From: Trileptium ribeirensis
Lineage: Eukaryota > Nematoda > Enoplea > Enoplida > Thoracostomopsidae
Assembly: GCA_030248225.1 (NCBI GenBank)
Contig: JASANE010016246.1
Coordinates: 1 to 64,000, forward strand
DNA: 64,000 nt
Reading direction: 5' to 3'
This document shows, piece by piece, positions 14,011 through 64,000 of the stretch (position 1 is the stretch's first letter; each line of letters begins with the position of its first letter). A program made the position numbers and the translations under genes. The notes beneath the pieces are model-generated. The model had not been told where the DNA came from. It did no database searches and saw only the letters and a list, made by a program, of their open reading frames with translations.

Positions 14011-14135
14011 AACATGTAATATTTTTACTTAAAATAAAGCGGCTGCTGCGTCGTGTTTAAGGGTTTAATATTTGGTATTAAGTTGCCATGAAGTCAACAA
14101 TGTTATTATAATGTGTTACGATCTATATATTGAAG

Positions 14136-24059: not shown

Positions 24060-24380
24060 AAAATGTCGACCATTACGCTATGGCCATTATTATTTCGGAA
24101 TTCGCCAAAATGTTGGCCATTACACTGTGGGCAGGATTATTGGTAGTCGATAAAATGTTGGCCATTACACTGTGGCCAGGGTTATCGGGGTCTTCGATTA
24201 AATGTTGGCCATTGGACTGTGGCCAGGATTATTTGGATTTTTGTAAATGTTGGCCATTAGACAGTGGCCAGGATTATTGGGGTTTCCGTAAATGTTGGCC
24301 ATTAGAGTGTGGCCAGGATTAAGGGTTTTCGACAAAATGTTGCCATTAGGCTATGGTCAGGATTAATCCACCTCGTAACG
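24060..24380 (-). repeat. 45 bp tandem array at the LTR 5' end, seven units
   Basis: Units begin AAATGTTGGCCATTA at about 24060 (diverged), 24108, 24153, 24200, 24245, 24290 and 24335. Each holds the partial palindrome TGGCCATTxxxxTGTGGCCA. In LTR orientation the array lies just inside the TG terminus, the expected place of U3 enhancer repeats. The 5' LTR (29240-29290) has about one unit and the 3' LTR (60735-60845) about two, so copy number varies between LTRs. Confidence 0.85.
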
Positions 24381-24401
24381 ATCCAGTATGGATCTGTTAC
24401 A

Positions 24402-30100: not shown

Positions 30101-30154
30101 GTCCTCACGAGTGAGGACCATAAAAATATGGCTGTTCGCCATATAGCGAACAGC
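30101..30154. promoter_or_regulatory. Two adjacent perfect hairpins conserved between LTR copies
   Basis: GTCCTCAC-GA-GTGAGGAC (30101-30118) is followed by GCTGTTCGC-CATATA-GCGAACAGC (30131-30154). The solo LTR keeps the second stem intact with a different loop (GCTGTTCGC-TATAGG-GCGAACAGC, ~22287-22315, opposite strand). The 3' LTR keeps the first (~61974-61991) and adds CGTGACGG/CCGTCACG beside it. The role is unknown; RNA packaging, transcription or processing are possible. Confidence 0.55.
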
Positions 30155-30233
30155 AAACGAGCAAATTTCCTGAAAACATTAATAAGAAAAGTGAAATATG
30201 ACTTTACCAGTGTTGATATTGAGATGTACCCTG

Positions 30234-33535: not shown

Positions 33536-33720
33536 CGCATATTTGGAATAAAACTCCGTACCATCCTGGCCGTATTTTATTTTTTCGAGTTTCGATAGGT
33601 GATTTTCATTCGCAATTTTCTTAGGCGTTAAAGTGAATGAGCGCCGGGCCGCTCGTACACGCGCATTGTTGGAAACTGAGAACAAAATTGCTCGTTCCAT
33701 GACGGGATTTCTTTTAGGAA
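33536..33720. repeat. ~180 bp repeat shared with 31540-31720
   Basis: Both contain TTTGGAATAAAACTCCGTACC, TTTCGATAGGTGATTTTCAT and GCTCGTTCCATGACGGGATT at the same spacing. I see no copy at the matching place of the solo LTR (20.4-20.9 kb), so it is probably a small dispersed element inserted into the LTR. Confidence 0.65.
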
Positions 33721-36700: not shown

Positions 36701-37609
36701 AGTAAGGTGAGCGCAGCTGCCATTAGAAAAGGCTTAACAGTTTACGCCGTGATTTGAATCAGCTGTGAGAGTTCGATGAAAAAGGCGATGACTCCGCATT
36801 TACCCCATTGGTTGCCCTGCTCATTCTCCAAATGGCGTACCATACTAGTGATCTTATACCTACTGTATTAGCCCGTACAATATATTCTTGTCCGTGATTT
36901 TGTCTTATCAATAAATACTCAATCCAACCCAATGTGTCCATGCGTTTTGCTGACCCTAGTAGCGATAGATACCAGAAAAAGGGGTTTGAAATCCATCACC
37001 CCTATCGACGACCCACGTTCAGGTTTGACGCACGCATTGAAGAAGCAAACATTAGCGTGACTCGCCGATTTCAATTTAATTGTATTATTGTGTGAGTAGG
37101 ACTCGTGCGACCAATAAGGAAAATTTGCCTCAAAATTAAAACTTTCGCTGAACGCTCAGAATAGGAGATCACACGCGAATCCGACGTTAAACGTCTAGGG
37201 ATTTGTCGGACCATAGTGGGGGCCAGTGGCTAAATTAAATAAATTATAAAGCGTTCAGGAAAATAGGAAGGAAAACTTTACTCCGAAAACACTTCCCGGT
37301 TGAACGATGATAGGGACTAGTGGTATGGTTTCTTTGGCCTGAGAGCAGGTGACGGAGCTAACCTCCCTAGGGACCTCAACGGTAATACCGCTTAGGCTAC
37401 GTGCGCAACTGTCCAGCAGTATCAGAACATATCCTGTGAAGCGCCCCTGCGGCTTGCTACGCTCCGTAATTTGTTGGCCCTGACCCGAATCAAAGAGAAG
37501 TAGAAATTTGAACCCATTAGGTCCGCCCTCGAGGTTACGATAGCAGGGGTCGTATGGGCATTACGTTTGTGGAAGGGCTTAATGCAGCAGCGTCACGTCG
37601 ATTACAAAT

Positions 37610-37627: not shown

Positions 37628-38897
37628 ATTATTTTACTCGTTTAACCCGCACGCCGTGCAAAATTTGTTTCGTTCAGCCCATACGACGTGAGAAAAGCTT
37701 GTTTTGTTGTGTAAATATTGTTTTGTATCTTAACTTTATAAATTATTTTGAGTAAGTAGTGACCTCTCGCATACATACGAGGTGACTGCGCTGGGTCGTA
37801 CAAGAGCATTGTATGATTAAATGGATAAAGTTTAAGTGTCTGGCCAAGGATGGTACCGTTCGTAGTATTCGTGAATTGGTATTTGTATGATATGGTTTTA
37901 TCGAAATTGTTGTTGTGTTGACGTATTGCTGTGCCCATATGTCTCAACGTTTGCCCGCGTATATTTGGAACAACTCGACCACAGAAGTAGTAACTCGGTG
38001 CTAAGGTACATTGCAACGGGCACTTTTTCAGGATCTATAGTCACTAAAACGTGTACTCAGCCAATTGTTTAACTATCATTGTGTTCTCAAGAGAGAACAA
38101 TTTCGTTAAGGCTCTACCCCAAGTCATCGAGAGACATTGCTGCCCTGCGCCTGAGGAAGATTTGGAACTACAGTTATTACCATAGTGGTGGACAGTCGGA
38201 ACTATTATAATTAACCAGTGGATCAGTATCGTATTAAGAATTATTGTTAATTAGTGGGTTATCGGTATCGTCGAAACCATTATTGTCAACTAGTGGGTTA
38301 TCGGTATCGTCGAAACTATTATTGTCAACTAGTGGGTTATTGGTACCGGCAGGTAAACTACTACTATACATAGTCGGGTTAGTGGTATCGGTGGAATTAT
38401 TATCATTAGTTACTCGGGTTATTGGTGTTAGGTAAACTGGTTATTGACCATTTTGGAACAGTTTGCTCGAGGACGTTCAGTAACTTTTCAACCATCGTTG
38501 GATTTCGAGGGTTCGCCGTTAACCGTAGCATTGATTCGTACAAGACGCTGCTGGTCCGCCGCGTCATCGAAATAAAGAACGGTGGGAAAATCGGTGCCTA
38601 TGCAGCTGGTGTGCCGTACCGGTCTCGAAGAGCGAGTGGAGAAGCCCGTGGAAAAAGAATGCCGCGATCGTTGGATTTGGACGTTGTAAATTTTGAACAC
38701 TATCGTTTGTAAATTTCGTTGTTGTAATATAATTTATATTGAATCGTGTTAACTATTGAAGCGAATTGTCATTGAACGAGTGAGCAAATTTTTAACGAAA
38801 TAAGGTCAAATTTTTCGAGGAATAGTTCCTGAGTTTTGGAGAAGCTGGTAATAACTTGGTAAAATTGTAAAATTTTGACTAGAGAAGATAGTTTTTG
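37628..38897 (+). other. Leader between PBS and gag, with a 39 bp minisatellite
   Basis: Tandem copies of AACTAGTGGGTTATCGGTATCG-like sequence lie at 38205-38440. AGTGGGTTAT recurs at 38253, 38292 and 38331, an exact 39 bp period. A small ORF at 38422-38712 (about 96 codons, basic C-terminal part RSRRASGEARGKR) precedes gag. I cannot assign it. It could be part of the packaging leader and not a protein gene. Confidence 0.45.
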
Positions 38898-40366
38898 ATG
38901 GCAAACCGACAGGAATACCCCATGACTGATCTTGGAGAGTATGTAGAACCGGAATACAACTTTGTTAGTAACCCTGTTTCTTGTAATGCCCTCGCATTTG
39001 GAGGAAGTCATAACCCGCCTCTCCCTGAAGGTAATAATGGAGATTTATCGCCTCTCCCTGATTCCTCGACGGGTACTCTAAATGCTCTATTGCACCATCT
39101 TGTTAAAAAAGCCTCTACGACGACTATTATACCCCTTCGTGACATTCCGACCTTCGAAAGAAAACCTGGAGGTCAGGATTTTGAAGATTGGATTCGAATG
39201 TTTATGTGATTGTCTAGTGCAAATAATTGGATTGATGAACAAAAGTTAACATGCATACCCGCACTATTGTGAGCACCAGCTCGAGAGGCCTATGCAGGCC
39301 TCACTCCAGCTCAATGACGAAACTTTGACTGTCTGGTTTATAGTATGCGCTTCTTATTTTCTTTTTCGCGCCGCCAAGAGAAATTGCTAGCAGGCCTTTA
39401 CACTAGGAAGCAAGGTGTAGGGGAAACCGTCACAATATATGGCTTAGAAGTGCAAAATTTGTGTGACCGAGCATTCCCCGACGTTGTCCGTCCACAGAGG
39501 GGTTCGCTCCTCCGTAAATTCTTTCAGAGAGGATTACGTGTAGAATTACGTAGGCAATTGTTAAACCAAATTTATGAATGTCTCAGTTTTCGCGATATGT
39601 TAGAGGTTGCTAAGCGATATAAGGATGCGATATCTGACTGTCCTGAACCGGACACCCTCGCAGTAGGATGTAAGCGGCGTCCCACTAAGGCAGTTAAAGC
39701 CCATCTCGAAGATCCCGGAGAAGGATTGGTCACACAGCTTCAATCAGTGTTAGAGGACCACCGCCGTGTAAGTAATACTAATAATGATACGATAAACCGA
39801 TTAGTCGATGTAATCGATCGCCGAACAATAATCCCGCATCAATTGAACGCGCTCGCGCAGCAGTACGCAAGCAATCGGCAGCCAGTAGCATCGCGCCCGT
39901 AGACGCATTTAGTAGATTGTTTTCGTTGTGGCCAGAATGGTCACTATGTCGCTATTGCCCGACAGTGGCATACCCTACGCCAGAACCAGCAGGCGCTGTA
40001 GCGCGAAGACAGCAGCCTGTCGACGCATATGTCTCCAGCTATGTACATCGTTTAGCCCAACCTAATCGCTCAGGAGGCTCGAGCGAGCCTTATCGTAGTA
40101 ATCAACTCAACAATTGTGCACGCCGTCCCGAGAATAGTCGCATGAATGGTCAGCCGTATCGACCATATCAAGGTCCGAACAATAATACGCGAAGATATTC
40201 CGATGGTTCTATGATCGGACCAATGAACGCATCTAACAACTACCCGCCGCAGAATAACGCATTCCAACGTCCACGTAATGATCGCGTGTCCATGGGACCC
40301 GCGTATCCCTCGAATAGACCACAGTTCCAGAATAATTACGGTCAAATGAGAGAAAGACCCAATTAG
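38898..40366 (+). pseudogene. gag: gag (capsid and nucleocapsid) of the giant retroelement, broken
   Basis: The ATG is at 38898. One frame runs to about 39958 apart from four stops: TGA at 39207, 39270 and 39315, and TAG at 39900. The capsid-like part resembles Ty3/gypsy retrotrans_gag (FEDWIRMF near the start; GETVTIYGLEVQNLCDRAFP; KFFQRGLRVELRRQLL). A zinc knuckle CFRCGQNGHYV begins at 39918. Its last Cys is reached only after a 1-base frame change, into the frame that stays open to 40366. That end is rich in Asn, Pro, Arg and Gln (RPYQGPNNNTRR), as RNA-binding nucleocapsid tails are. All three TGA stops could derive from CGA by C-to-T change. Confidence 0.85.
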
Positions 40367-44166: not shown

Positions 44167-45144
44167 ATGGCTAATCGTCAAACACGACAGTATCAATCTA
44201 CTAATGACCGCGAAAAGACGTGCCACCTATACACATGTGGAAAGCGCATCAACATTGAACTAACGACACTTATATCGCTTGTGGAAAATGTAAGTCTGAG
44301 TTTCATGCAACTTGTGTATCTATTCGACTGTTGCTAAAGAAATTATGAAAGTTTCTACGAAAGTTTTTTGGTATTGTCAGGAGTGCAACCCAATTGTACT
44401 TGAGCTACTTGATCGTTTCGATCGTAGTCAAGAGCGATGCGATGCATTGGAGGCTAAAATGACCAATGATCTCTGAACAAATGGCTGAGCTGCAATCCAG
44501 CATGTCCCACAGCGTTGACGGTTCCCGAAGTCGTGTTTGTAACCCATTGAATAATGTCAGTAATAGTTCCATGGAAGAGATTGCTAAAGTCACTGCTGAT
44601 AGGGCCATCAATGAGTATGGGATAGTGAACGCCGCAAATATAATTTGATGGTATTCAATTTATTACAGCAGCCGACATCACCGCCGGAACCGACAGATGA
44701 CCGTAAGCTGTTCAAAGAACTGTTACTTCAGTTGCAACTGGATGACGAAAACTTTGACATCGAATTTATCGGCCGCGTGGGTAAGGAAGCGACCACTCAG
44801 AAAGGTGAAGTCCGACCTAAAGCGTTGAAGATTTGCTTCAGTCGCCAAAAGTCCGTCTCCACAATCCTGCGAAATGTATACTTGCTGGAAAATTGTCCTG
44901 ATCCACGCTTCCAGAAAATAAGCATTAAGCCATATCGTACTAAACTGGAACAGCAACAAGAGAACGTATTGTATGAAGAATATAAGCGCCGTCGTAGAAG
45001 TGGTGAAGCAAATATTGTCATTCGAGGTCTTCGTTTTGTAACTAAGTCGCGATATAATACTGCTAATGCCCGTAATAGAAATTTTCTAGAGGCATCGGTA
45101 AACCAGCAGACAGCAACTACCTCGTCCCAATCAACTCAACAATA
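44167..45144 (+). pseudogene. ORF1 of a nested CR1/Jockey-like LINE: PHD finger, coiled coil, RRM-like domain
   Basis: The start is ATG 44167. The first part carries paired Cys and the PHD signature CGKCKSEFHATC then WYCQECN (reached through a frame change near 44290). A helical linker follows (DALEAKM; QMAELQSSM). The frame at 44645-45144 encodes a domain typical of CR1-type ORF1 (FIGRVGKEA; RPKALKICF; YRTKLEQQQENVLYEEYKRR; EANIVIRGLRFV) with a Gln/Thr/Ser tail. Several frameshifts break it. PHD plus RRM-like ORF1 proteins are known from CR1-group LINEs. Confidence 0.75.
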
Positions 45145-45168
45145 GGCTGGGACAACCAACTAAGTATA

Positions 45169-48100
45169 ATGACTCCTTCTGTTAATTTAGTTTCGTTTAT
45201 CAATTGTGATCTTGTTAATAATGTCTCCATGTCTTATAATCGTAACTCTGGTAAATCCAGCTTTAGTCTCAGTAAATACACTGTTGCTGAAAATACTAAC
45301 GTAAATATTAATACTTTAAATACTGTTGTACCTAAAACTGGAGCTCACATAGTCATACCATCTAATTCAGCTTTGTTTAGTACACCGTCAATTTATCATA
45401 AAACATTTGATATCTCTTCTAATCGGACACGTTCAGGTGAAATTTGTTGTGCTCTTTTCAATGCACGCTCTCTAGTCAATAAATTTTCACATCTTGAAAT
45501 GTTTGTGAGCGAAAACCATAACGTCAGGCTCATTTGCGTCACAGAGACGTGGTTAACTAATGATGAAAATTTTTTTGACTCCTCGTTAGATGGGTTCAAA
45601 TACTTTCGTGGGGACCGCGCATCTTGAGGGGGTGGATCCATTATATATGCCCATAACTCACTCTGTCCTACCATTGCAATTAATCTACAGCACCTCGATG
45701 ATGTAGCAGCTTGTGTTATTCATGATAACACCCGACGTATTCTTGTTTGTTGCGCGCACAGACCTCCATCTAATAGCGACACAGCGAATAATGGCCTTTA
45801 TACGTTTTTGCGTAGTCTCAGCTTTGAACCGTATCAGCCGTTACTTCTACTTGACGATTTCAATTTTCACGAAATCAACTGGGATAATTCTACTTGGCCA
45901 CATATCTGTGACAACTTTATGAACTGCATTTTCGATCTTAGTCTTACACAATATGAGCGAGAACCCATCAGACTTCGAAATATTTTGGATCTCGTTTTTT
46001 GCAGCGCTGATATTGTTGAAAATGTTCGCATTGTACCAGGTCTCGGTTGCAGTGATCATCAGGGAGTAACATTCGGTTTGTCATTCACTGCTCGTGATAT
46101 AACTGAAACACCAAAACTATGCTGGGCCAAAAGCAACTGGTGCCTTTTTGTTAGCCACGTCAGCAATAATTTAAGCTTCGACAACTTCCTTGATATAGAT
46201 TCCATGTGGCACAGTATAACCAACTGCATCAATACTGCTATACAGCTATATCTTCCTCGAGTGACACTCAGAGCTCGCAAAAGGCCTGTTTGGGCTGACT
46301 ACAGACGCTGGATTGCATTAAAGCGGCGCCAAAATGCTCACACATACTACTGCCGAACTCAAAACGTGCAAGCATGGGATATTTATCAACGAAACAGCAT
46401 CATTTGTGACATCGAAGTAAAACGTTCAAAACGACGATATCTTGCTAGCCTAAGCCAACAAATAAACTCTAAACCAAAACTATTTTGGAACCACGTTAGA
46501 TCAAAAAGTCGACCATCGCACTGCCTACAACGTCAAGACGGCACTATCACAGAAGATACAGATGATGTTGCCTTCCTTTTTAATCAGTATTTCTCATCAG
46601 TGTTTCAGCAAGAATCCATCGCCCATGCACCAGATTTTGCTGCACGTACTGCTGCCAGACTGAGTAATATTACTTTTGATCCTCTTATTGTGGCCGCAGC
46701 AATTAGTAAACTAAATTGTAATGCTGCTCCTGGACACGACGGTATTTCGAATCTTATATTGTCAAAATGCCGATTGACGCTTGCCCGCCCGCTCACCATA
46801 TTGTTTAATAAATCATTTACTTCCCATTACCTTCCTGTCGACTGGACTCGAGCCAAAGTTATTCCAATCTACAAGGCGGGCTCTAAACGCATTGCTTCCA
46901 ACTACAGGCCTATAAGCCTAACTTCGTCTTGCTGTAAACTCATGGAGACTTATCAAGGCAAATATTGTTACATTCTTTGATGATAATAAGCTAATTAGCT
47001 CATCTCAGTACGGGTTCAGATCACGTAGATCAACCACCTTGCGACTAATATACTTTCAGCATACGCTCACGGGATTCATCGACAGCAAGATGTGTGCCGA
47101 CGTCATTCTTCTAGACCTGCGCAAAGCATTCGATTTAGTACCGCACCATCGCTTGCTTCTTAAATTTGCGGCTTATGGTATCTCTGGTGATTGTCTAGCA
47201 TGGTGCCGTGCTTTTTTATCTCACAGGTCTCAATACGTCTCTGTTAACGGAGCATATTCAGCGGAACTACCTGTCTATAGCGGAGTACCACAGGGCTCCG
47301 TACTTGGTCCTGTGTTCTTCAACTGCTATATTAACGACTTAGACGACCATATCAGAAACAAAATTTGAAAATTTGCTGATGATGCTTGTATTATGAGCGG
47401 ACTACGAATACCTCATGCTGACTTAGATTGTCGTATTCTTGATGCCGACTTAAATACGGCCTCTGATTGGGCAAATCAATCACTCATGCTGTTTGGCATA
47501 CAAAAATGCACTGTTATTCATTACGGCCGGGACAACCCGAATCATACATATTTCCTAAACGGCGAAGAACTTAAAGCATCGGCGTCGGAACGCTACTTGG
47601 GAGTTACTATCTCAAGTGACCTCAAGGCCTCCCAACACTGTCAAAGCATTTCTACTGACTGCCATAAAATTCTTAGTTTACTGTTTCGCACCTTTGGATA
47701 TATGGACAAACAACCTTTTTTGCTTATATACAGATCCCTGGTGCGCTCTAAGTTAGAATATGGTTGCCAAGCTTGGTATCCACACCTACAGCGCGACATT
47801 CTTTTGCTTGAAAGGGTTCAGCGGAGAGCAACTCGTTTAGTCAGAGGAACTTTTGGCATGGACTATGAGCAACGATTGCGCTATCTACAGCTTCAATCAC
47901 TTCAAACTCGAAGATACCGGGCCGACCGTATTTTGACTTATCAACTACTACATGGCTTGGTTGACTACGACTGGCGTAACATCTTTGTATTGGCTGATCC
48001 TCTGTCTCTTCGCACTAGAAACAACACCACGAGATTACTCAAACCTCGAGCACGTCTAGGCTGTCGCATCTATTCATTCGCCTTTCGCGTAATTCGCCCT

Positions 48101-48193
48101 TGGAACCAGCTACCTGTTTCAATTGCCACTGCCCCAACACTAGCTGTATTTAAACGCAAACTCCATGTCTCTGGTGCGCTAAATGGACTCTGA
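45169..48193 (+). pseudogene. ORF2 of the nested CR1/Jockey-like LINE: endonuclease and reverse transcriptase
   Basis: An APE-type endonuclease is recognisable by LFNARSLVNK, LICVTETWL, PPSNSD and LLLDDFNF. The reverse transcriptase follows: [67 protein letters not shown], and catalytic FADD at 47372-47383. The terminal region (QAWYPHLQRDI, RRATRLVRG, RPWNQLPVS) is typical of CR1/Jockey-like LINEs. There is no RNase H domain, unlike the LINE at 3265. Breaks include stops at about 45627 and 47366 and a frame change near 46970. A 3' UTR of about 200 bp runs toward 48400, where host env sequence resumes. Confidence 0.88.
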
Positions 48194-48409: not shown

Positions 48410-50690
48410 CGAATGTTATTTTGACGGATATTACGGAAGGTAGAGTGATACCGGGACCTTATTTACCAGTTGTGCCTTTATTGATTTAGATGGAACCATT
48501 TGGCCTCGTTGGTCATACCTCATAGGATTGAGAACACAGTCAGCAAGAGTAAGCTTTCGCAATAGTAATCTGGAATTTCATGAGCTAATTATGCGAGCTC
48601 CTTATTTGTTAGATATTATTTTCCGAAACCAGGATACCAATGGTATCCCAGTAGATAAGTTTGCACAACATATAATGGAACACACGGAGTTTGAAAATGA
48701 GTCTCATCGGCGAGATCGTCAGAAATTTTTAGAAGCTAAGTTATGTCTACTAAGACACCCATACACTCGTTGACGTGTGAATCTCCAATACTAAGACCCC
48801 AGTAGAAGACCTCGACCAGCAGATAGCTGATGCGATGGAGAAGTATCTGGATGAAACGGAAACTGGCCCTAAGCCGAATGACGACCGTGTTAACGAAGTC
48901 ACAAGTGTTCCCTACCAGGATGAAGTAGGATTAGAACCAGTTCCTGAGGAACCTAACAAGATGCCGGACGCGTCCAAACCTTTAGTTGGATACAGGACTA
49001 GTATCCTGGTAAGTAGCATTTTTGGAGTTCTTGATTATGTGGTTCGCATTGATTTCAACTACTCACACCGATGAGTGAGAAAATATCTCGTCTAGGATTA
49101 GTAGTAAACTCTCAAGTAGGAGTTGTAGTATTACCCCAAGGCCTAATGATCACATTAGATCAACTTACATATTTGCCCGTAGTCTTACAGCTAACGTTAA
49201 TACATTGGAGACCAGATATGAGAGCCCCTCGAACGAAGTTACCCCTTGCCTACTGTACAACGCGGATGGCACGTGTTCATCCGATTGCTGCTATTGGAGT
49301 AACTGTACAACTGAGTAAAGTACAGTTGTACAAAACTATGCTAGAATTAGGAACTGAGTTAAGTGGAACCTATAATGGCGTTCTAGATATTAGTTATTAT
49401 TCCAAACTTATGCGCTCATTTGGTGATAATAACTTATATTTCTGTCATGATGACCCTAAGAGAAGCAAGCGTTTTGTTACGCTTATTGCAGCTGCCGTTG
49501 GAGCAGTATCAGGATTTTTAGGAATGTGAATGTCCACCTCCAATGGCATCCACATACACAATATGGAAAAACTAACGCACGCCATAAGAACGCCAGAGAA
49601 CCCTACGTAATACAAAAGAGATTAAGAAGCTAACCCAAGCTAACGAAGATTTATACGCATTTCTACACCATAGCATGCAGGAAGTAGTTGATATGGTAGA
49701 CCAGGTTAGTTGCTTACAACATAAAGCAGTAATGCAAGTGAACCAGATGTTGCTTACCCATACAGTTCCAGCTAACATTCGATCATCAGTCCAAGTCATA
49801 ATGCAATGTATATTGAGTGGAGAATTAACGTCGACCGTAGTAGACGCTCTAATGTTAAGACGCTTATTTGAAGTGGATCCAAGAATGTCCCAGTCGGTTT
49901 TATTCCGCGAACCTAATTTGGCCGAGTTTTACCTGCCAATGTTGACCTGACTACTTTTCGATTTGGATTTATTTTGCAATTACCCTTACTCGCTACTCGA
50001 ACGCATGTAAAATTACCGCTACCAGAATACGCAACCCGCGTATTTTCATCGGGCTTTGAAGTATTGAATTTAGCCGCTTGTAAACGCCGCCCAGGGATTG
50101 CATTTTGCGAACCGCACGCGCTTGTGACTGATCAACGCATACATTGCCTTGACTGGATTATCTCGGGTGACCTTGTCTCTTACTACACCAAACCAAAATG
50201 TCAAAACAGTTCCTTAATCGTACCACTTGACAATGGTACCGATGTCTACACTACTACGCAAGGAGTTCTGCCCCGTACTTCGGAGGAGAAACTTGTAATC
50301 ACTGACAAACGGCATTTCGCGCATATTACACACGGACAAAGTAGGATAGTACCCTACCATGTAGTCATTTGGATGCCACATGGTAACAACACACAGTTAA
50401 TTGTAGGATCACTTATGCTAACCAGTATATTACAACCTGAGGAATTGATGTTTAGAGTTGGCCCTAACATTACCTTAGACCAATTGTCTAGTACCACGCT
50501 AAAACCCCTTACTTGGAGTTCTTTAGAAAACGCTAAAGCAATTAACCTACAAGTCGCTCAGATAGCCAAGGACCAACTACATAAGGTTATAGCCCTTCCT
50601 GCACTCGAGTATACCGGACTATCATATATCGTAATCGGCATCATTGTACTAGGATATAACCTCTATAAGTGTAACTTACCTCCCCGATGA
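48410..50690 (+). pseudogene. env: Envelope-like glycoprotein (env) of the giant retroelement, broken
   Basis: The order fits a class I fusion glycoprotein. An N-terminal subunit of uncertain start (48410-49470) ends in a furin-type site RSKR at 49461-49472. An Ala/Gly/Val-rich hydrophobic fusion peptide follows (49473-49526), then helical heptad-like sequence (ANEDLYAFLHHSMQEVV) in a shifted frame to 49950. An ectodomain ORF at 49974-50690 has paired cysteines and four N-glycosylation sequons (NSS, NGT, NNT, NIT). A transmembrane segment (YIVIGIIVLGYNLY) and a short basic tail close it. Stops or frameshifts near 48507, 48773, 49074, 49527 and 49950 inactivate it. It lies between gag and pol, not after pol as usual. 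Whether it is of the insect errantivirus type cannot be settled by eye. Confidence 0.72.
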
Positions 50691-50947
50691 CCCACTGTCT
50701 ACCCCTATGGTTTCCTGTTGGAAAACGAGTGGATAACCGCCCGGTCGACCTAACATCGACCACCCGGTGGATGATGTCTTCACGCGACGCGTCCACCACT
50801 TCCTATACCGACGAAGCACATGCTATGACGCCGCTTCAGAAAGCCGAAAGTACAGCCTCTTTACCCTCTCCTGATAGAACCCGCAGAACCAGTAGAACCC
50901 CTCGTCGTTATACACGAAAAAACATACTCCAAGCGCCCTTACGATGA
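50687..50947 (+). pseudogene. Short Ser/Thr/Arg-rich ORF overlapping the env stop (ATGA), lead-in to protease
   Basis: Its ATG at 50687 overlaps the env TGA by the arrangement ATGA. The 86-codon product is polar and basic at its end (TRRTSRTPRRYTRKN). Protease sequence starts immediately downstream in a different frame. It may be the N-terminal part of pol, expressed by stop-restart coupling or frameshifting, or a chance frame. Confidence 0.4.
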
Positions 50948-51996
50948 AGGAAAGGTTTTCATCGATGATGGAGAGCTATTCGCTAACCCCATCCGTCGAC
51001 TACGTAGTAGGTCTCGTTCTGGTATCATAACCAAACGAGTCAACGCTATAGAAGCTAATAGCACACCGTTGACTATCAACACCACCAATCTAGGAACACC
51101 CGTAAATAGCCTTATTGACACTGGAGCAGACGTCTCCATTCTATCTCAAGCTACTGTAGCCCGACTAGGATTCGTACCCCCTTGAATCTACCAATACGAG
51201 AATAGTTTACGCAACACAAGAGCTTTCAATAAGTGGAGTGGTGAAAATACCCATAACTATAGGAACCCTTACTGTACCTTGTGAATTCCAAGCCACAAAT
51301 GACACCCCCTACGAATGTATTTTAGGAATCGATTTTATGGCCTTCTTACCACATGTTGCCATTAACTTTAAGGACCGTTGTCTGGACCTATCAAACGGTT
51401 CGGAAAAGTGCTACGTGCCTTTTGCCGATCAAGCAGATTATTATCCACCCGTCATTAACGTCGTAAGCCGACAATACGTTCAAGTTCCCCTTAATACGGA
51501 ATTATTTATCAATGCAATACCCGAAATTGCACAACCTCCTGTTGGTCAAGCCTTATTTGTACCAGACCCATTAATCCTTGATTTAGCAATCGTTCGTACC
51601 CTGGTTCTAACCGGACAGCGATTAATCCCCGTAGCCGTCATGAATTTCGGAAACCTCCCTGCAGCGATTCGTGCAGGACAGACAATTGGACATATTGAAA
51701 TACTCGATAACTCTGCAGTTGAACTTTTGTACGACCAAAATAATATCCTGTTAAGTTCGGGACCGCATTGTAATAATTTAGGCCTGATTACCAATAATGT
51801 CGTACAAGTTATTAACGAACAAAACAAAGCGACCGACACTGAACGTTTGATGCAAATTCTAAGCGATATTAATTTCTCCAATACGTCTGTGAGCCCCTTC
51901 CAGTTGAAACAACTCAAAACCGTAATTTCGGAGAATTCTGACGTCTTTAGTAACCATGCCTTTGATCTAGGCCGATGTGGCATACATCACCATTAG
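50938..51996 (+). pseudogene. pol: pol: retropepsin-like aspartic protease and linker, frameshifted
   Basis: The protease active site LIDTGADVSILS lies at about 51111-51146, preceded by a basic spacer (IRRLRSRSRSG). A stop at about 51183 and a frame change move the rest into the frame at 51238-51996. That frame has the second protease signature ECILGIDFMAFLPHVAIN (flap/hydrophobic-Gly region) and a long linker that leads to the RT. Retroviral proteases cut Gag-Pol into mature proteins. The linker (~150 residues, VNVVSRQYVQVPLNTE onward) resembles that of metazoan gypsy elements. The frame stops at TAG 51994. Confidence 0.85.
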
Positions 51997-53430
51997 ATTA
52001 ACACTGGAAGCGCCCGACCCATTAAGCAAGTTCCGTATCGTCTTGCCCACTCTTTGAGAGAACACCTCCGAGAAGAATTAAATAACATGGTTGAAGCCGG
52101 ATTAATCACACCCTGCGATTCCCCTTGGGGATCGCCCATAGTATACATAACTAAGAGCGACGGAACATTACGCCTGTGTGTCGATTTTCGTAAGTTTAAT
52201 ATAGTTGCCGAAAGAGATGTCTACCCTTTACCCGCATTGACGATATTTTAAGATGTCTCAGAGACACTAAATTTATGTCTAGTTTAGACTTTAACAAAGG
52301 ATTTTGGCAAACTAGAACTTGATCCCGAAACGAAGGAGAAGACCTCTTTCGTTACCGTCCATGGACAATACGAATACAACGTCCTTCCCTTTTATGTTAA
52401 CTCTTCCCCCGGAGCTTTCCAAAGATGCATGTCAATAGTACTCAAAGGACTAGAATGCCAACGATGTTTGATATACATCGACGATATCCTGATCTTTTCC
52501 CCTAGCTTTAATACATACCTAGTGGATTTGGTCACTGTATTAGACCAATTCCGAAAAGCCAATCTTAAGGTAAAGCCATCAAAATGTCAATTTGGACAGA
52601 GACAACACAAGTACTTTGGACACATTTTCAGTTCTGATGGAGTAAGACCGGATCCCGACAAGACCGTTGCCATCGATAATTATAAACGCCCTGAAACCCT
52701 GAAACAACTCCAGAGTTTTCTAGGTCTCGTTGGATATTATCACAAATTTATACCCCGTTACTCAGATCCCTGTGAACCCTTGAACACCCTTCGTCGAAAA
52801 GACACTGAATTTAAATGGGCACCCCAGTGTGAGGAAGCTTTTAACAAATTACGAAAAGCCCTAGTAGAAGAACCACTGCTAATTTACCCTGATTTTACTA
52901 AACCCTTTGTTTTATAGGCAGATGCCTCTGGTTATGCCTTAGGAGCTGTCATGTCTCAGAAAACCGATAAAGAAGTACAACCCATCGCGTATGCTAGTAA
53001 ATCCTTGGTGGATTATCAACGTAGATACCGCGCTATTGAAGCCGAAGCCCAGGCCATACGTTGGGCTGCATTGCATTTTAAACATTACCTATTAGGACAC
53101 GAATTCCGTGTAGAAACTGACCATAAGCCAATTAAGGTTCTTTTGACCGGCCTTTGCGAAACTCGCGTTTAGCCCAATGGAGAAATGATCTATAAATGGA
53201 ATTCGGTGGATTTGAGATCACCTACCGGCGTGGAAAGGCCAATGCAAACGCTGATGGTCTCTCTCGAGACCCACGACACGATGTCGAATTCTCATTCTCT
53301 TCTGATGAAGAATAGGACGAAGAAGAAGAATACTGTAAAAGAGTGGCAATGTTGTCACTTAAAAAGGGCCCTAGACGAAAAAGACAGGATGAAACCCCGA
53401 ACAGAGAGCAGCGAACGACGAGTTCGTTAA
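51997..53430 (+). pseudogene. pol: pol: reverse transcriptase and RNase H, broken
   Basis: RT starts right after the stop at 51994 (NTGSARPIKQVPYRLAH). It shows WGSPIVYITKSDGTLRLCVD, NVLPFYVNSSPGAFQRCM, and the catalytic YIDD at 52474-52485, followed by the thumb and connection (GHIFSSDGVRPDPDKT; LGLVGYYHKFIPRY). RNase H follows the stop at 52915: ADASGYALGAVMSQ, IEAEAQAIRWA and VETDHKPI supply the acidic catalytic residues. This order and these motifs are those of Ty3/gypsy and errantivirus pol. Stops at 52249, 52915 and 53170 and frame changes near 52250-52330 and 53170 make it non-functional. Confidence 0.92.
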
Positions 53431-54909
53431 ATAGACTCTTAAAGATTTGAAACAAATGCTGTCTAATACAGAAGTACCTAGACTAACCCAGGAACTGCGT
53501 AGGAAAATACTCGACACTTATGGTGGAACCGACCCAGCTAATAATCCTAAAGACTATGTCATTATAGGCTCAGGAGTTATAGGAAGCCCAGAACCGGATC
53601 CTAGCTAACAAAACCCTGGCCCGTCAAGTGCACCCGATCTGCCTCAAGAGGATTCCCACCTCTGGTGAGCATCCTCTTCAACCCCAAACAACACCTGAGA
53701 AGGAACCTTTCGATGCCTTAATTAAGGTGGGATACGCTTGTGAAAGCCCTATGGTCCTGTTGAAACTTGAACAAGTGAAAGACACAGGAGGTTTATACTT
53801 ACCACACTTTAGTCAAGAATCAGATAAGAGCTTAATTATTCCTCGACTACAGCAACAAGACGACAAGTTTGGTCCTATTCGAACATATTTACAAAAAGGA
53901 ACTCGTTCTGATGAACCCAAAAATGCTGTCACGCTCAAATTAGAATCACATCATTAACGTATCTGCCCTACAACGTAAATCTTGTACCTACACCCAATCT
54001 TACCAAATGATCATCGCCCTAAACTCTGCGTTCCCCATCGACTTATCCCCCATATCTTGAAGCATGAGTACGATACCCTATTTGGAAGCCACCCAGGCCG
54101 TGATCGACTTATGAGTAAGCTGAAGCAATTTTATTATTGGGAAAATATGAGTAAGCGTGTTGAAGATTATGTAAAGAGATGCGAAACCTGTCAAAAGTCT
54201 CGTAACATACCTCAGAATGTCCGAGTTGCCCTTGGCGATTTACCTCAAACGAATGCCTCTATGCATCAGATGTACGTTGACATCCTTGATATTTCCAGTG
54301 GAAACAAGTACGGTCTTGCTTTTATTGATCAATTTACAAAGTTTGTTATCGCCGTCGCCATCCCCAATCAAACAACTCGCACTGCAGCACAAGTATTTAT
54401 TAAAGAAGTTGCTTGCCGACATGTCGCACCTGCTGAATTAGTATCCGACTAAGGTCGAGGTTTCATTTCCGACCTTATACAAGCCTCATGTGCTGAACTA
54501 CTTACTTTCAAGCGTGAAACGCTAAGTTACAACCCAAAAGCCAATGGCGAAATAGAAAGATTTAATCGAAGTTTACTCTTCTTGCCTATCGTACCAATGT
54601 CCAAAGATGGCTTGCCACAATTAGAGAAAATGTATACCGTTCAATGCAAGCAGCCCGTGAATACCGTAAGCAATATTATAACCGGAAAACTAAAATTCCT
54701 TCATATAAAGTTGGAGATGAAGTGCGGGTGTATCGATATCACACAACCCCTGGTTTGTCGCGTAAACTTGAACAAAGATGGTGTGGACCGTACCAAATAT
54801 TAAAGGTCATACCGCCATGTCTCCAAATACCTCTTACAGCTCAAAGTCACGCGAAAAGACATCTTGTGCATTTTAATCGCACTAAACCTTGTTACCGCCC
54901 ACTTCGTAC
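53431..54909 (+). pseudogene. pol: pol: integrase, broken and cut by a hAT insertion
   Basis: An N-terminal extension (53628-53957) leads into the HHCC zinc-binding motif: HEYDTLFGSHPG, then RCETCQKSR near 54180. The catalytic core has Asp in MYVDILDIS, Asp in AELVSD (followed at once by TAA 54450), and Glu in NPKANGEIER near 54545. A C-terminal DNA-binding part with a GPY-like motif (RWCGPYQILKV) is in the frame 54644-54958. This frame is interrupted at 54917 by the hAT element, and the tail resumes at 56068 in a compatible frame. Confidence 0.9.
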
Positions 54910-54917
54910 CTTCCCAG

Positions 54918-56059
54918 CAGGGAATAACCGGAACCAGCAACCGGAACCGTTCATTTAACCGGAACCTGGTCTTCGAAATTTATATTTAGTAAAACATATG
55001 ATGGAAGAAATGAAGGTATACTGGATTTTAAACGCATTAAAAAATAACTTTTACATTAAACTTAATGTATTGCGATTCTATTATTACCTTTCTCAAACTT
55101 TAAAGAGACTGAGGAAGCTAATGATGTTTATTTATCGATCAAATATGTCGGTTTTTGGACATTCAGAGCAAAAAATGTTTTCCACTATACCCCATTGCGT
55201 ATACTGCGTCACATCGAATGTGCTTACAAAGCTTGGAGCGTAGAATACACACTTTCGCTGTCTCCAGTCGCCTCCCTTTACTACACATACGTTTGTTGCA
55301 TGTTCTTCTGTAGGAAACTTAAAATTATTGGTTTATATGATTCTAAGAGAAAATAATAGATAGAAGGTAATTTTCTGATCAGTGGTCAGAGACACTGTTT
55401 AAGGTAGCGTTGGACAAACAGTGCCCGTCAGTTAGATCATAATGATGATGACTTTCTAATCAGAATGCTATAAATGAGACACACTGTGATGCTGCTCGCA
55501 CAGTTTCAATAAATACAGTGCATTGTCAAAAAAGCAGTTTCTAGCTGCGTTGCAGATAACGTTAGTTTACTTCAATTTAGACTGATTTACCAAGTTTACA
55601 AGCGCACTGGCTGGTGCTTGACGCAATTTATGTTAGCCAAGCATACCTTAAGTACTTCTGCTTAAGCCATACTCTGTTACCAAGTTGGACCGGTTTAATT
55701 CAACCGTATCCCACAGACTTCTGGATGTGTAAAATAGCTGCTACAGGCATCGACCTGGCTTTGATTTAACAAATTCCTGCAGGTTATTATGAAAAATTCC
55801 TGCTCAAATTATGTGCCTTATTTACGTTTCACACGGCTAATTGGTTAGTTAATCTTTTCTTTTGTTTGGTTGTATTGGAGCGTGATCATTGTATAATATA
55901 TATTACATATGTTTGGATTACAGGATGAAGGAAAAAACGTGGAAAATTTCAAACAAAATTTTTAAACCGGAATTCCGGTTCCAGTATGGTTTTTTCCCTT
56001 TGCCAGAACCGCAACCGGAACACGATTTTCGCCGGAACCGGAATTCCGGTTACTCCCTG
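54918..56059. mobile_element. hAT-type non-autonomous element (1142 bp) inserted in pol, perfect 8 bp target duplication
   Basis: It begins CAGGGAATAACCGGA and ends TCCGGTTACTCCCTG (13-14 of 15 bases inverted). It is flanked by CTTCCCAG at 54910-54917 and 56060-56067. GGAACCGG-type repeats lie near both ends. It is closely similar to 30234-31342 over its whole length. It encodes no transposase. Confidence 0.92.
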
Positions 56060-56067
56060 CTTCCCAG

Positions 56068-57521: not shown

Positions 57522-58197
57522 ATGAATTACCTCAGAGGACCAAAGCGATACTCTGATGTCAGCAAATCACAACAAAATCCTGTTCCTGTGCCGTACTACT
57601 TCATCGAGTATTCGAAACTGATAGAAGTCTTTCTTTCCAGAGGCACTCGATGGCCTAATTTGTCGAACATGGCCGCCCTTAATCAAACGATTCAACATTA
57701 CCCCATCGAATACAGTTCTACGGAACATGGATATTAATTACTCGTCACTTACCTTTTCAACGAGGATCAAGCTCGACTAGACATCGAAGCCGTTAGATTG
57801 GGAGCTCGAGATGTCAAATCCATTGCCCGAAGAAACAAACAATAATTTATAGATGAGGTAAACACTCAACATCTTCGCCCCGTATTGCCTCATCTAATGA
57901 GAGCCGTTTTGCAAGTTATGCAAGCTCGATTTGCTCGTTTTAAGGAATACCCTATTGTCCACGGGAGATGCCCTGCTTCTGGAGGCTAATCCTACCGATA
58001 GCTTGTGGGGTATTGGCGTTGGATCTCACGATTTTAGGATAGGCCGTCGCCCAAGGAACTGTCACAGTGTGATGGGACGATTACTGCAAGAGATCCGCAC
58101 CTTTCATAGGGACGGAATCGTTTCATGGCCAACAACTATAATCCTCGGCGATGCTACCGCCACCTCGCTGTTAAAGCTTAACGAAAGAGCTGATTAG
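57522..58197 (+). pseudogene. NADAR-domain (YbiA-like, DUF1768) protein encoded by the retroelement, broken
   Basis: The domain order is as in the NADAR family. The surface motif WPNLSNM is followed by YSSTEHGY (EHxY motif), a helix RLDIEAVRLGARDVKSIARR, and RPVLPHLMRAVLQVMQARFA (R…VM…L.AKF-like). The signature then follows: LLSTGDALLLEANPTDSLWG, ending IGVGSHDF. It ends in an NxxG..L..IR helix (SVMGRLLQEIRTF). NADAR proteins include N-glycosidases of riboflavin metabolism and enzymes that remove ADP-ribose from guanosine in DNA. The start ATG 57522 is a reasonable choice. TAA stops at 57735 and ~57843, a frame change near 57940 and a TAG at 58195 break it. It lies downstream of pol, within the element and not in host sequence. 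Confidence 0.8.
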
Positions 58198-58656
58198 TTT
58201 GTCCATACTTTGCCAAGAGCAACTATGGAATTCCTCATCCGAATGGCTACTTGTTTAATTACCCCACAAACTCAAACTGTTGTCATTATAGGCGGATACC
58301 TATCTGCCCTAAGAAAGCAACCCCTGGAAAATCAACCGTTAGACTCTCCTCGCCATGTTTTACGGCGACTAAGACGCTACATGTGTACCTTTAATTATTT
58401 ACTGTCAGACTCTGCTACCGCTATTATGTCACCACCCCCGCTTTGTTGGGATATTGAATCTGACATAACGGCTTGGTCGACTGAGTTTCAGGAGGCCCAT
58501 GCCGAATTTCAATTGAATAAACCACATATGTTACGCAAAGTGAGAATGCCGCCCTTCCCTATGGAGCTACAGTTACAGGGGCCCCGCCATTCTATGATTG
58601 AAAATGTCACGAACAAGTGGCGGGGCCCCTGCACCCGAAGTATGGGACTGTACTAA
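58198..58656 (+). pseudogene. C-terminal domain continuing the NADAR frame, possibly SGNH/GDSL-like
   Basis: After the TAG at 58195 the same frame is open to 58656. The segment from about 58120 reads TTIILGDATATSLLKL, then TVVIIGGYLSALR about 45 residues later. These resemble block I (GDS) and block III (GGND) of SGNH hydrolases, but Ser and Asn are replaced and no block V DxxH was found. A helical C-terminal part follows (WSTEFQEAHAEFQ). The assignment is weak. It could equally be another Rossmann-like fold. Confidence 0.35.
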
Positions 58657-60701
58657 TAACAATGTAAATGGTATACGAGAACAAGTTATTAACGAGTATT
58701 TTGCTAATCACCTGAGAAAATGGTTGGAACATCAGTTAGCAAGAAAACACTAAATTTGTACGAAGCCATCATCAGTTGAGAAATGTGAGAGCCCAAAATG
58801 GGACAAATCTGTATGAACCGTTCACCGTAATCTGACGCAATTGTTGTGCCTCGTCATATCATTGATTCTGCATAAATTTGTTTGGTCTAGATATGCTGCC
58901 ATAGTGCCTTTGTTTATTGATACATGTACGCCTATTGTAGTAGACGATGCTTAGATACCCAAAATCAGGTGCAAGAATCAAGATCCGCGAGGACCTAAAG
59001 GTGTTAGAGAGTGAGAAATATAGTCATAGAATTCAGCAGCTCTCAGGTTTAAACCAAAAGATTAGTAAGATTTCCAGGATTTCTGAAATGTTGGCTCTTC
59101 TAGTATAGAGAGGACTCTGAGAAAAAGGGTCCCCGAAACCCCAACCTCATTGAAACCACTAGTTCCCCAACACCTCCTGCATGACTTCTAGTAAGTTGTT
59201 TGACCAAATTTTGCCTAAGTTTTAGCTTAAATATTGCTGGTAGGAGCAGCTTTATAAGGAAAAAGCTGTTATCAGTAACCATAGTAAAACCAATATTTTG
59301 AGTTTCTACTACCTCACACTGTCCCAAACGTCCACTAGCGCAGTATGGTCGTCGTTGTCATCATCGACATCATCGTCTTTGGAATTATATCCGGATTTAT
59401 TCTTGTCCGGGTTCCTTCACAGAAACCCTGTTTAGCCCAAACAAGAAGTATATTGGCTTCCCCAAAGCCCAGACGCGGCTAGGAAGGAGCCGCCTGAATG
59501 AGGACATTATCCTCACCAAAACAGAAAACTTACTCCCTGTTAGAAAACGCCGCATCAGCACATCGTAAATGGCACCTCGAGTTCGGTTCCTGCGTAGTTT
59601 TTATCGTCCAGAGAAAAGCAACGACAACGCTCCGAAAATGTAACAAATTTGCTAAAATCCATAAAATTTTGATATTTCAACTTACGGATACTTGAAGTAT
59701 GTATCAAGTATGCTTATCACCAACCGTGGTAAACTTAATAAGCTAAGTTTTAACCACTTTGCAAGAAGTTTCGGACAGATCATCGTGATAATTGTCATAA
59801 TATTTCGACTGTGATTACTGTTTTGTATCCCGGCTATGTGTATGTGGCAACAACCAGCAATGAACACAATTTTGTGCGAAATGTACTTCTTCCGCACTCG
59901 TCGATCCTGTTGAAAACCCACCAAAGAAAACTCCGAAAGAGAAACCCCACAACTCCAAGTGCAAAGTTAAATAATCTTCCCCAAAAAAATTAAGAGAAGG
60001 TCTTAAAGACCGTTGGAGACTTAGGGAATTTTCACACTAATTTGTAAAACAAAATCAAGAAATTCAATAGGAACCACATTAAAGTGGACCAAGGAAAATA
60101 GGAAATTCGAACACTCGTAAATTTAATATTTTATTTTAAACCACAATTTTAACATAGCCAACGGTCACAACTGAAACCCCATAAACCGCTGGTCGAAAAT
60201 TTCGCTATATAAAGCACCGAGAAAATCTACTTTTAAGATTGTACCATATTTTTATTTTACATTTTTTATTATTTTATTTTATTAATTGTAAATATTTTGA
60301 CCTGGCGACTTTTGGGGAATTTGGCACCTGGCTCTTAGGGGTCTTGTGTGCCTGGTGTCCCCACAGGTACGTAGGGTCTCAAAGTTTTGAAGGGCTCATG
60401 ACTCCAGTGAGCCCACTTTTCATGAAAGAAATCAGCGTCAAAACCCTCACGATAGTAAGGGGAAATAAAGACCTGGAAACAAATAAATTATTCTTGTGGG
60501 ATACCGTATCGATACCCGGCAGTAACCAGCGTACCAGAAGTAGCGCAGCAAATTAACTGCGAAAATGAAAAAGCCGTACAAAACGCCCCAACCAAAAACC
60601 CCAAGCCGAATGTAATAAGCACCCCGCCCCGTGATAAAATCTGCCCTAGAACTCGTACTTAATCTTCCCACCCCAAGTGAAGAGTCGAATAATTTTCCCT
60701 T
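58657..60701 (+). other. 3' untranslated region of the retroelement, no gene supported
   Basis: Only short frames are present. One at 59345-59479 starts with a strongly hydrophobic run (MVVVVIIDIIVFGIISGFIL) and could encode a small membrane peptide, but it has only 45 codons and no support from context. The remainder is C/A-rich with no recognisable domain. Confidence 0.4.
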
Positions 60702-60714: not shown

Positions 60715-63700
60715 TGTAACAGATCCATACTGGATCGTTACGAGGTAGATTAATCTTGGCCACACCCTAATGGCCAACATTTACGAATATCGTTACGTGA
60801 TAGATTAATTCTGGCCACACTGTAATGACCAACATTTTCGAATTTAATTACGGATGTCTCCCTAACTTAGAATACCTAACGAAGATGACCCAGAAGGATA
60901 TGAAACCAACCCCGCTTCGAACCACATAAGTTTATGGCATTAAAACCAATTTATGATCTCTTGGCGCAAATGAATACATAAGCCGAGTTCCCCAGTACGT
61001 ACGAACTGACCGTAAGACTCTGTAGTCACCCTATTTAAAAACAATATATACGTGCCACAAACCATGAATCTTTACGCGCGTTAACCTCGCTAGGAATAAA
61101 GACTTTTCGTCATATTTCGGCTTGCACCGCCGACATTTTTTGCGATCAGGATGGGTATCGTTATTAATATTTCAGGAATGGATAATCGTAGAAGTCTCGC
61201 TACCGTATATATATGTTGATTGTAGCGCCGTAAAGGCACCTATTGGTATACTTAACCTGTATATTATTACCACTGTTGTAACCATATTGTTGTGGGCCAT
61301 AAAGACTTTATTGGAGTACTTGAATTATAGATATATATATATATATATTACTTTTACCATTGCTCTTGTGTACCATGTTGATTGCCATAGAAGCACGTAT
61401 TACGTATTCGGTTTGTATAATCATGATCATAGCGAATGATGTGTATATACCTAGAGTACCTTTGGAATCGTTGTTGATATTCATATGCGTTTTTAGGTGA
61501 AAGTATACGATCTGGCAGCCTGATTACCGTCGTTATTCGCATTATACCCTCGTTTGTGGACATATAATTATAACCGTTTATCAGTAATTGTCGTACCTTA
61601 TCCTAACGTGTTGGTCATGGCCATAAAGGTCTATATTTGGATGTAATCTTATTGTGTATTTCATTGATGTTTTCAGGATTATGGTTACATTTTATTGTAC
61701 CCTTGTGATTCATAAGTTTAGAGGTGTGAGTAATCGCGAGTAACTAGCTTCGTAGGAAAAGAGCGATTTTTACGCGTCTAAACTAGTATGTTAATAGGTG
61801 GAAAATGCGAGTATGGCGAGCCCTTGCCATAGTCGACTCGTGGAAAAATAAGACGGTACGACCCCCCGCCTGCCCCGATATATAGAAATAGCACTGCCCC
61901 GCATGGTAGGACCGCGAAACTCATCAAGGTTTTTCATAGGAAAGAGTGGCCGTGACGGATACCCGTCACGACAGTCCTCACGAGTGAGGACCACAAAAAT
62001 AGCCCTACAGCGAACAGCAAACGAGCAAATTTCCTAAAAACATTAATAAGAAAAGTGAAATATCACTCTACTAGTGTTCAATATTGAGATGTACACTGGT
62101 AAACTGCAGTAACCAAAATTCGCTGGCTAGGTTAGCTGATAAAAGTATAAGAAAATTTAAGAAAATTCGGACTCAAAAGTTGCGGCTCCGGCTCATAACT
62201 ACGAAACCGTTGAGAATTTGGGATTTGAGGACTCAATATTTTTGGTAGGAAATAACACGTTCTTTCTAATGAGACCGGTCTCGTGAAAATCCGACCGGGA
62301 TCCAAGGACTTATGAGGAAATAAGCATGTATGTAGAGCAAATAAACCACATTTAATTAAATAACTCCACGAATAGTTAACACAAAAATACGTATAGGACC
62401 TCGTTAGATTCTTTGAAACCCGGGCTTTTATTTGAGCCCGGACCGGTCTCGCTGTGCCCACTTTTAAATACCCTTTCCCATTAAAATCGCAGAAATAACG
62501 ATCCGACAGGCGTGTAACCCCTCGTTAGATTCCCCTTGTCAAAACTAACGTAAAATATACTTAACGCTCCATAGAAAGGCGACCCGAATGCGTGGGAGCC
62601 GCGTAAAACACCCTAACTCTTTATAAAATTTGTGATGGACTCGCCCGAGAGCCCACCTTCCCTTTTTGTCGTCCAAAAATGGACCTGTTACATATCATAT
62701 TACTCGGACGGACACGCTGAGTCCGAATCCGAGACCCGTTTAAGCACATTGATTATCATCGAGGGAACAACACCATTATATCACACCCTTTTCTTTTTTT
62801 TGTTTGCACAAGCCGCGCTCCTTTTTGCAAGCTGATCCCAAGTACGTACGTTTCCTATATTAACTTTATTTCAGCACTAAGTCAACATTTAGAGTGTTAT
62901 CAAATTTATATAAAAGTGGCTAGTCCAAAATCAGTTGTGTTGGTACTTCATAGCAGTTAGATTAAGCCGGCGCTTTCTTGAGCAAACAAAGTAGGACTTC
63001 GAAGTAGTGGCAAACTTTATATAAAGGTTGACCTCGTATGATGTGTACTTCTAGGGATTAAATATTAAAGCTTCTTATCAGTGTAATATCGCTACAGATT
63101 TAATACAAAGTTTTGAGCTTGCTAGCTTGATGTGGACGTTCAGCGGTTGTGGCTATAAAGCGCTATAAACAACGGATTGTGTCTTGTACACATCCACTGA
63201 GCAAACAGCTCTGATGTATATATACTTTATACGGAGGTTGTGTATTATTTATTGAGGTGTTTTATTAGAAATCTCGGGAAACTTCTTATCAGTTTCATAT
63301 CAACTTGATATTACTCTGGTACGACTGCCTAATTAAGCTCTGGAGTCAACAAGGTTGTCCTTTCGAGTTAATATAGAGTTTATAATTTATAGCTTAATAT
63401 AAGGTTTAAATTAATAATTTGAAGTTTATATCAGGATTATTAGAAGTCTCTAGAAAGTTAGTGGGGTAGTTTAAAGGAGTTTTCATATAAATTTGTTATA
63501 AACAAAGTCGTAAATCAATTTAAATTATATAAAATTTCATATTAAAATGGTGTGAAATTTACTGGAAATCGGACTAAGAAAGTTTGATTAAAGGATCAAA
63601 CTTTAGGGTCAAATCGTCCCAAGAGTGATGTCCAAGCACTTTTCTTAAAGTTTTAACGACCCAATAAATTATTTTAATGGTCGGAAAGTGGCAGAAAATC

Positions 63701-64000
63701 TGAATATTTAAACGGCATCACTCAATCTCTCGAGCGTTCAGTCTGACTTCGACAGTTCAGAGTATGGTCGGTTAGCAGACCGGCTCTGCAGCTTTTCAGT
63801 TATAGTTACAGTTTAATCAACTGATTGGCATTTTCTTTTGGCTTTCTTACCTCTGGTTTTGCGAATGGATGGACAAGCGATGGATGGACGATCGGATTCG
63901 AATCTGTAAGTGTGGATAGGGAGGCTTGATGTAGTTCTAGAGTAATATTTACGTTAGGTAGGACAAGCCCGGAGAATAGATGAGATAGATGAGCGAGTAG
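60715..64000 (+). repeat. 3' LTR of the giant retroelement, cut by the window edge
   Basis: It opens TGTAACAGATCCATACTGG with the same terminal stem-loop as the 5' LTR, then about two 45 bp units. It follows the 5' LTR through 61000-62090, skips the nested hAT (empty site at 62091-62098), and matches 31780-33200 to the window end. It adds short stretches and lacks others. About 3.3 kb of an expected 7-8 kb is visible. Confidence 0.85.

Follow-up and report, generated by a model that had tools for sequence, protein, structure and literature searches.

The first 64,000 nucleotides of contig JASANE010016246.1 of the nematode Trileptium ribeirensis, hereafter the window, hold a decayed copy of what appears to be a giant Ty3/Gypsy retroelement, in which Pol is followed by an accessory open reading frame (ORF) that we call ORF2. 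ORF2 is a fusion of a NADAR domain with a domain of the SGNH/GDSL fold. A sequence-only reading of the window had recognised ordered NADAR motifs and proposed that a retroelement carries an ADP-ribose-linked NADAR domain. It had let the gene end at 58197 and placed it 2.6 kb downstream of integrase; we found instead that ORF2 continues to about 58750, that its second domain had been overlooked, and that the integrase core match and the match of the C-terminal NADAR half lie 3.4 kb apart.

In a hidden Markov model (HMM) search, the frame at 57901-58197 (98 amino acids, plus strand) scored 36.2 bits against the Pfam NADAR family PF08719 (E 8.9e-9), for which the curated cut-off is 35.1 bits; the N-terminal pieces taken alone (57522-57845) had no Pfam match. 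Three sister ORF2s from elsewhere in the genome aligned to nearly the full model, and all three passed the same cut-off (62.3, 60.8 and 53.3 bits). Pfam matches in both the window and the sister ORFs exclude a chance reading of the motifs. The domain also matched the solved NADAR structure 8bau by sequence (E 2.2e-4), and its predicted fold, a low-confidence model, was closest to E. coli YbiA (E 9.8e-3, probability 0.98). When the C-terminal piece was compared by tblastn with a phage collection, 238 records were returned at E values up to 1; the best (1e-5) is a protein annotated as hypothetical, and several weaker ones are annotated as YbiA.

The window copy of ORF2 is dead. Searching with open sister ORFs (tblastn), we recovered 57522-57911 at 81% identity, 57916-58620 at 70%, and a tail reaching 58750 at 41% over 51 amino acids. 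In-frame stops and a frameshift disrupt this copy, and its N- and C-terminal halves lie in separate frames.

ORF2 in sister copies of the element

Searching the 687-Mb genome with the NADAR piece returned 1,990 candidates, of which the best 150 all match, 138 of them over stop-free stretches. They form two groups, assigned from identity values: family A (about 64-82% identical) and family B (mostly 53-63%). We read 26 copies with an intact frame (20 of family A and 6 of family B, all picked for being open), which encode 380-441 amino acids. In family A, ORF2 is 380-397 amino acids long and starts about 110 bases past the usual end of the Pol frame, where Pol reaches that end. In family B the open frame spans 413-441 amino acids and starts either beside the point where the upstream frame ends or still inside that frame. 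As this relation varies within family B, it is more likely that ORF2 would be expressed from its own start or from a spliced message than by readthrough.

To relate ORF2 to the element, we searched the genome with the integrase. Family A accounts for 45 of the best 150 among 4,461 candidates, at 82-100% identity. A NADAR match lies downstream at 32 of these 45 loci, 31 times at 2.9-3.8 kb (window included) and once at 18.6 kb, in a pairing that drew on 67 of the 150 NADAR matches. At six of the other 13 loci, ORF2 is present where it would be expected, almost complete but frameshifted at four and partial at two. In total, ORF2 is retained at 38 of 45 loci, at two of them in part only and almost always some 3.3 kb beyond integrase, in agreement with the proposal that the retroelement carries the NADAR domain. 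Neither outcome that the sequence-only reading had named as fatal to it, a missing HMM match or sister copies without the ORF, was what we found. By sequence, two families of giant Ty3/Gypsy elements regularly carry ORF2 as an accessory ORF immediately behind the gag-env-pol frame.

A host NADAR gene inserted by chance beside a single retroelement, for which the very many other NADAR copies in the genome might speak, has next to no probability and is refuted. Place, order and the 2.9-3.8 kb spacing are constant at 31 of the 45 integrase loci; ORF2 also occurs at six of the 13 loci lacking a paired NADAR match, and in two element families; and it shares only 23-28% identity with four other sampled NADARs of this genome. 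Genome-wide copies at a constant position downstream of integrase exclude a private insertion.

Active site, second domain and selection

Active-site residues follow the numbering of PMC11543638 and were placed through alignment to 8bau, the placement of R93 and W89, beside an alignment gap, being less certain. E43, R79, R93 and D130 are conserved in all 26 ORF2 copies, and E125 and W133 in 25 of 26. The two glutamates that hold the distal ribose, E43 and E125, are thus those expected of the NADAR superfamily. Among NCBIfam models, the best match of two ORF2s was the riboflavin-intermediate N-glycosidase TIGR02464, with 52.9 and 51.0 bits, under its equivalog cut-off of 73.7. YbiA cleaves riboflavin intermediates.

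The C-terminal domain of ORF2 has an SGNH/GDSL fold. At the block I position of the catalytic serine, family A has alanine in 19 of 20 copies and threonine in one, and family B has asparagine in five of six and serine in one, so that the catalytic serine is gone in 25 of 26 copies.

We calculated the ratio of nonsynonymous to synonymous substitution rates (dN/dS) by the Nei-Gojobori method on codon alignments. Six disjoint family A pairs gave 0.075 for NADAR and 0.142 for the C-terminal domain, and three disjoint family B pairs gave 0.068 and 0.123; in pairs between the two families, silent sites are saturated. Five copies have an unbroken Pol (among 15 stretches examined), and in these dN/dS was 0.012 for NADAR, 0.00-0.04 for integrase windows, 0.091 for the C-terminal domain and 0.19-0.36 for the Pol tail, with pairs that are not independent of one another. 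A decayed pair with broken Pol gave 1.07 for NADAR and 1.28 for the C-terminal domain. The measured copies thus show ORF2 to be under strong purifying selection (pooled NADAR values of 0.07-0.08), in the comparison across copies that the sequence-only reading had called for. In the five-copy set, NADAR constraint is close to that of integrase; despite the sampling limits, its dN/dS lies far below the values of the decayed pair and the Pol tail. Two loci (L025 and L028) combine a broken Pol with an open ORF2 and a mutual dN/dS of about 1, that is, neutral decay in which a stop has not yet been acquired.

The surrounding element and other NADAR loci

The features of the window element are collected in Table 1.

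Table 1. Features of the element copy in the window and what each assignment is based on
Feature	Position	Strand	Basis
Gag-like region	38892..40366	+	Position and reading alone; no Pfam match
Long interspersed nuclear element (LINE)-type insertion (endonuclease and reverse transcriptase) between gag-like and envelope-like parts	44615..48193	+	Reading of ORF translations rather than HMM
Envelope-like region before protease, broken	48444..50690	+	Basic cleavage site, hydrophobic fusion-peptide-like stretch and C-terminal membrane span, read from ORFs
Aspartic protease start (DTGAD)	50829..51185	+	gag-asp_proteas 1.1e-4, Asp_protease_2 2.8e-4, both under cut-offs
Reverse transcriptase and RNase H start	52288..52917	+	RVT_1 3.6e-18, RT_RNaseH_2 6.6e-7
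Integrase core region	54030..54506	+	85% identical to a sister integrase; one internal stop
1.15-kb repeat within Pol tail	54913..56060	+	92% identical to a second copy at 30229-31343; Pol-tail placement by reading
Accessory ORF after Pol (ORF2, NADAR and SGNH-like), broken copy	57522..58750	+	tblastn with open sister ORFs
NADAR domain (PF08719), split over two frames	57654..58101	+	Pfam for the C-terminal half; limits transferred from sister ORF residues 45-192 (Pfam 8.8e-17)
SGNH/GDSL-fold domain	58102..58750	+	Catalytic serine mostly lost in sister copies
Start of 3' long terminal repeat (LTR), cut by the window end	60715..64000	+	Starts TGTAACAGATCC, preceded by an A-rich stretch; colinear with 29214-33245

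Pfam gives the domain order protease, reverse transcriptase with RNase H start, integrase. In the window, 53979-54452 passed the cut-off for Integrase_H2C2 (2.2e-19), and the rve match (3.1e-5, 24.6 bits) was under its cut-off of 32.6. The protease and rve matches of the window are both under their cut-offs, and their counterparts in sister copies are over them; the protease of a family B copy, for instance, passed as gag-asp_proteas with 1.7e-10. The envelope-like region had no Pfam family over cut-off, and a PDB search revealed no relative (best E 0.39). A family B copy has an unbroken frame of 800 amino acids in which a cleavage site, a fusion-peptide-like stretch and a membrane span run into the aspartic protease, and open frames containing integrase matches reach 4,813 amino acids. 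This layout, from which env and gag take their names, suggests Burro-like elements, whose single giant ORF places env in frame after gag and before protease.

The TGTAACAGATCC start is common to four repeats of the window, at 60715, at about 29214 and, inverted, at 24401 and 1266. A candidate 5' LTR begins at 29214 and runs colinear with the 3' copy to 33245, perhaps as far as 37602; it may be another copy, because its identity to the 3' LTR is patchy along its length, from 67% to 88%. Two colinear copies suggest a terminal repeat of up to 8.4 kb. Copies of this very long repeat lie at 16445-24401, 29214-37602, 60715-64000 and 1193-1266, with patchy identity between them. Large tandem repeats occupy 10593-16255 and include a 347-bp unit at 15254-16243.

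NADARs are also found outside these elements. When the genome was searched with the NADAR profile, the best 150 of 2,317 candidates were all over the cut-off. On other contigs, the four high-scoring NADARs inspected (L039, L040, L041 and L042) adjoin packaging-ATPase-like genes of Polinton/adintovirus type; the ATPase-like gene matches Pox_A32 in L041 (6e-6) and was named by reading in the other three. A further gene of L041 matches the TATA-binding protein family (1.1e-32), and by reading L039 and L040 have a similar one. On contig C17193 (L056 and L057) lies a decayed fragment resembling COX1, probably a copy in the nuclear genome; read by eye, its AGR codons stand opposite both glycine and serine positions; a clean mitochondrial COX1 was not found.

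Possible roles and known systems

We see about an even chance that ORF2 is a constrained accessory NADAR-SGNH ORF of a Burro-like Ty3/Gypsy element encoding a trans-acting base N-glycosidase or ADP-ribosyl hydrolase. Most likely it would shield the element from ADP-ribosylation or from damaged nucleotides, and its chemistry may be altered. Translated from a start of its own or from a spliced message, the protein would act in trans during replication of the element. Its NADAR half, as a base N-glycosidase or ADP-ribosyl hydrolase, would remove adducts made by the host or by damage from element RNA or cDNA, or from small molecules of the ADP-ribose type. The SGNH-like half, which in most copies lacks the catalytic serine, would bind a ligand, a membrane or a partner and thereby position the enzyme.

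Several observations weigh against this interpretation. K50 is valine in all 26 copies, at a position where the 8bau alignment is gap-free, and W89 is threonine or alanine in all 26. NADARs strip ADP-ribose from guanosine in DNA and RNA (PMC11543638, PMC11833690), and a lysine at K50 is required for efficient guanine-ADP-ribose hydrolysis in a studied member (PMC11543638); ORF2 lacks this essential lysine of the active hydrolases, which four of four other sampled NADARs of this genome have. The NADAR half was modelled poorly (mean predicted local distance difference test score 48). NADAR dN/dS in single pairs ranged from 0.01 to 0.15, the top values (0.13-0.15) coming from a partly decayed against a healthy copy, and low dN/dS is favoured since all 26 ORFs were picked for being open. 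At seven of the 45 integrase loci, the 1.4 kb inspected contain no ORF2. Finally, we found no relative of ORF2 outside this genome, either among the 7,999 candidates scored in a length-limited search of a large protein collection or in IMG/VR (queried with the ORF2 alignment, a Polinton-type NADAR and the reverse transcriptase piece).

With K50 replaced, the substrate or chemistry of ORF2 is probably distinct from the guanine-ADP-ribose hydrolysis measured in bacterial NADARs, and the retroelement lineage may have either an altered substrate or chemistry, or binding without cutting. The sequence-only reading had suggested resistance to host ADP-ribosylation of nucleic acids, or nucleotide or NAD repair during reverse transcription. 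Of this idea, a NADAR domain that is retained in a retroelement under purifying selection stands, and the simplest form, guanine de-ADP-ribosylation, does not fit the valine at K50.

The loss of this lysine from every copy also argues against a strict counter-defence, in which NADAR would undo host guanine ADP-ribosylation in element RNA or cDNA. We consider it unlikely, even though NADARs are the only hydrolase family reversing ADP-ribosylation of guanosine RNA in PMC11833690 and NADAR and Macro domains of eukaryotic RNA viruses have been proposed to act against host ADP-ribosylation (PMC9503650). The same loss, together with that of the SGNH serine in 25 of 26 copies, would suit a pseudoenzyme, both halves of which would be modules binding ADP-ribose, nucleotide, RNA or membrane in a structural or targeting role. 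Precedent exists in SGNH derivatives without catalytic residues in Athena retroelements (PMC5408684), but the glutamates holding the distal ribose, E43 (26/26) and E125 (25/26), are retained, and both the pooled pairs and the five-copy set show NADAR to be under tighter constraint than the C-terminal domain; we consider the pseudoenzyme unlikely as well. We are more doubtful still that ORF2 is a YbiA-type N-glycosidase cleaning damaged nucleotides from the pool during reverse transcription, as a dUTPase would in related elements. It would explain the glutamate that 25 of 26 copies share with the YbiA family at position 125, the riboflavin-intermediate N-glycosidase model as best NCBIfam match, and the dUTPase-like domain of Burro (PMC6431247), but both ORF2 scores for that model (52.9 and 51.0 bits) fall under its cut-off.

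If the leading interpretation is correct, a constrained accessory gene would mean that some ADP-ribose-linked or N-glycosidic step matters to retroelement replication in an animal, and the ORF2 copies would be a natural sequence set for testing that step. To our knowledge, no enzyme family other than NADARs has been reported to erase ADP-ribosylation of guanine, and we know of no role for them in animals. With little confidence, one could go further and read the fusion as a retroelement gene dedicated to counter-defence, whose active-site chemistry has changed; animals would then use nucleic-acid ADP-ribosylation, or an ADP-ribose-derived signal, against transposons and retroviruses.

Whether a NADAR domain in a retroelement had been described before, which the sequence-only reading could not tell, is answered by PMC12477816, which reports such domains in brown-alga Gypsy elements and Pacific oyster Tx1 LINEs. 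PMC9503650, in which phages, large DNA viruses and RNA viruses are all listed with NADARs, mentions no retrotransposon or retroelement. Among the papers listed in a search of the open-licence literature (subscription papers lie mostly outside this scope), none treats a NADAR-SGNH fusion or a NADAR in a Burro-like element. As far as the records returned show, what is new within that literature is the position after Pol, the NADAR-SGNH fusion, the Burro-like giant setting and the measured constraint. Our analysis thus adds a NADAR and SGNH-like domain fusion and what may be a second setting for Burro-like giants with an envelope inside the polyprotein.

Compared with the Ectocarpus Gypsy lineage (PMC12477816), the elements described here share a YbiA-family NADAR on a Ty3/Gypsy element; there, however, it stands at the Pol N-terminus, whereas in the copies fetched here it is a separate ORF past the end of Pol, fused to SGNH. 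Pacific oyster Tx1 (PMC12477816) likewise carries NADAR within an animal retroelement, but this is a non-LTR element with NADAR in ORF1. With the DarT1-associated and Phytophthora NADARs (PMC11543638), ORF2 shares the domain family and most ADP-ribose-contacting residues; K50 is present and needed there and is valine here. An SGNH-fold accessory ORF within an LTR element has a counterpart in ORF3 (GDSL/SGNH) of the bdelloid Vesta elements, where the invariant residues are intact, in contrast to the serine mostly lost here, and for which PMC5408684 makes no mention of NADAR. The closest overall layout is that of Burro of planarians (PMC6431247), called the first case of env in frame between gag and pol of a giant polyprotein: like Burro, the elements here appear to have a single giant gag-env-pol frame (4,873 amino acids in Burro, up to 4,813 here), accessory domains and long LTRs. 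They differ in that the excerpts on Burro mention neither NADAR nor SGNH, the word NADAR being absent from PMC6431247 altogether, whereas a separate NADAR ORF follows Pol here, and in that the BCL2, BIR, ankyrin and MATH domains of Burro were not seen in the gag-side pieces of the window that were scanned.
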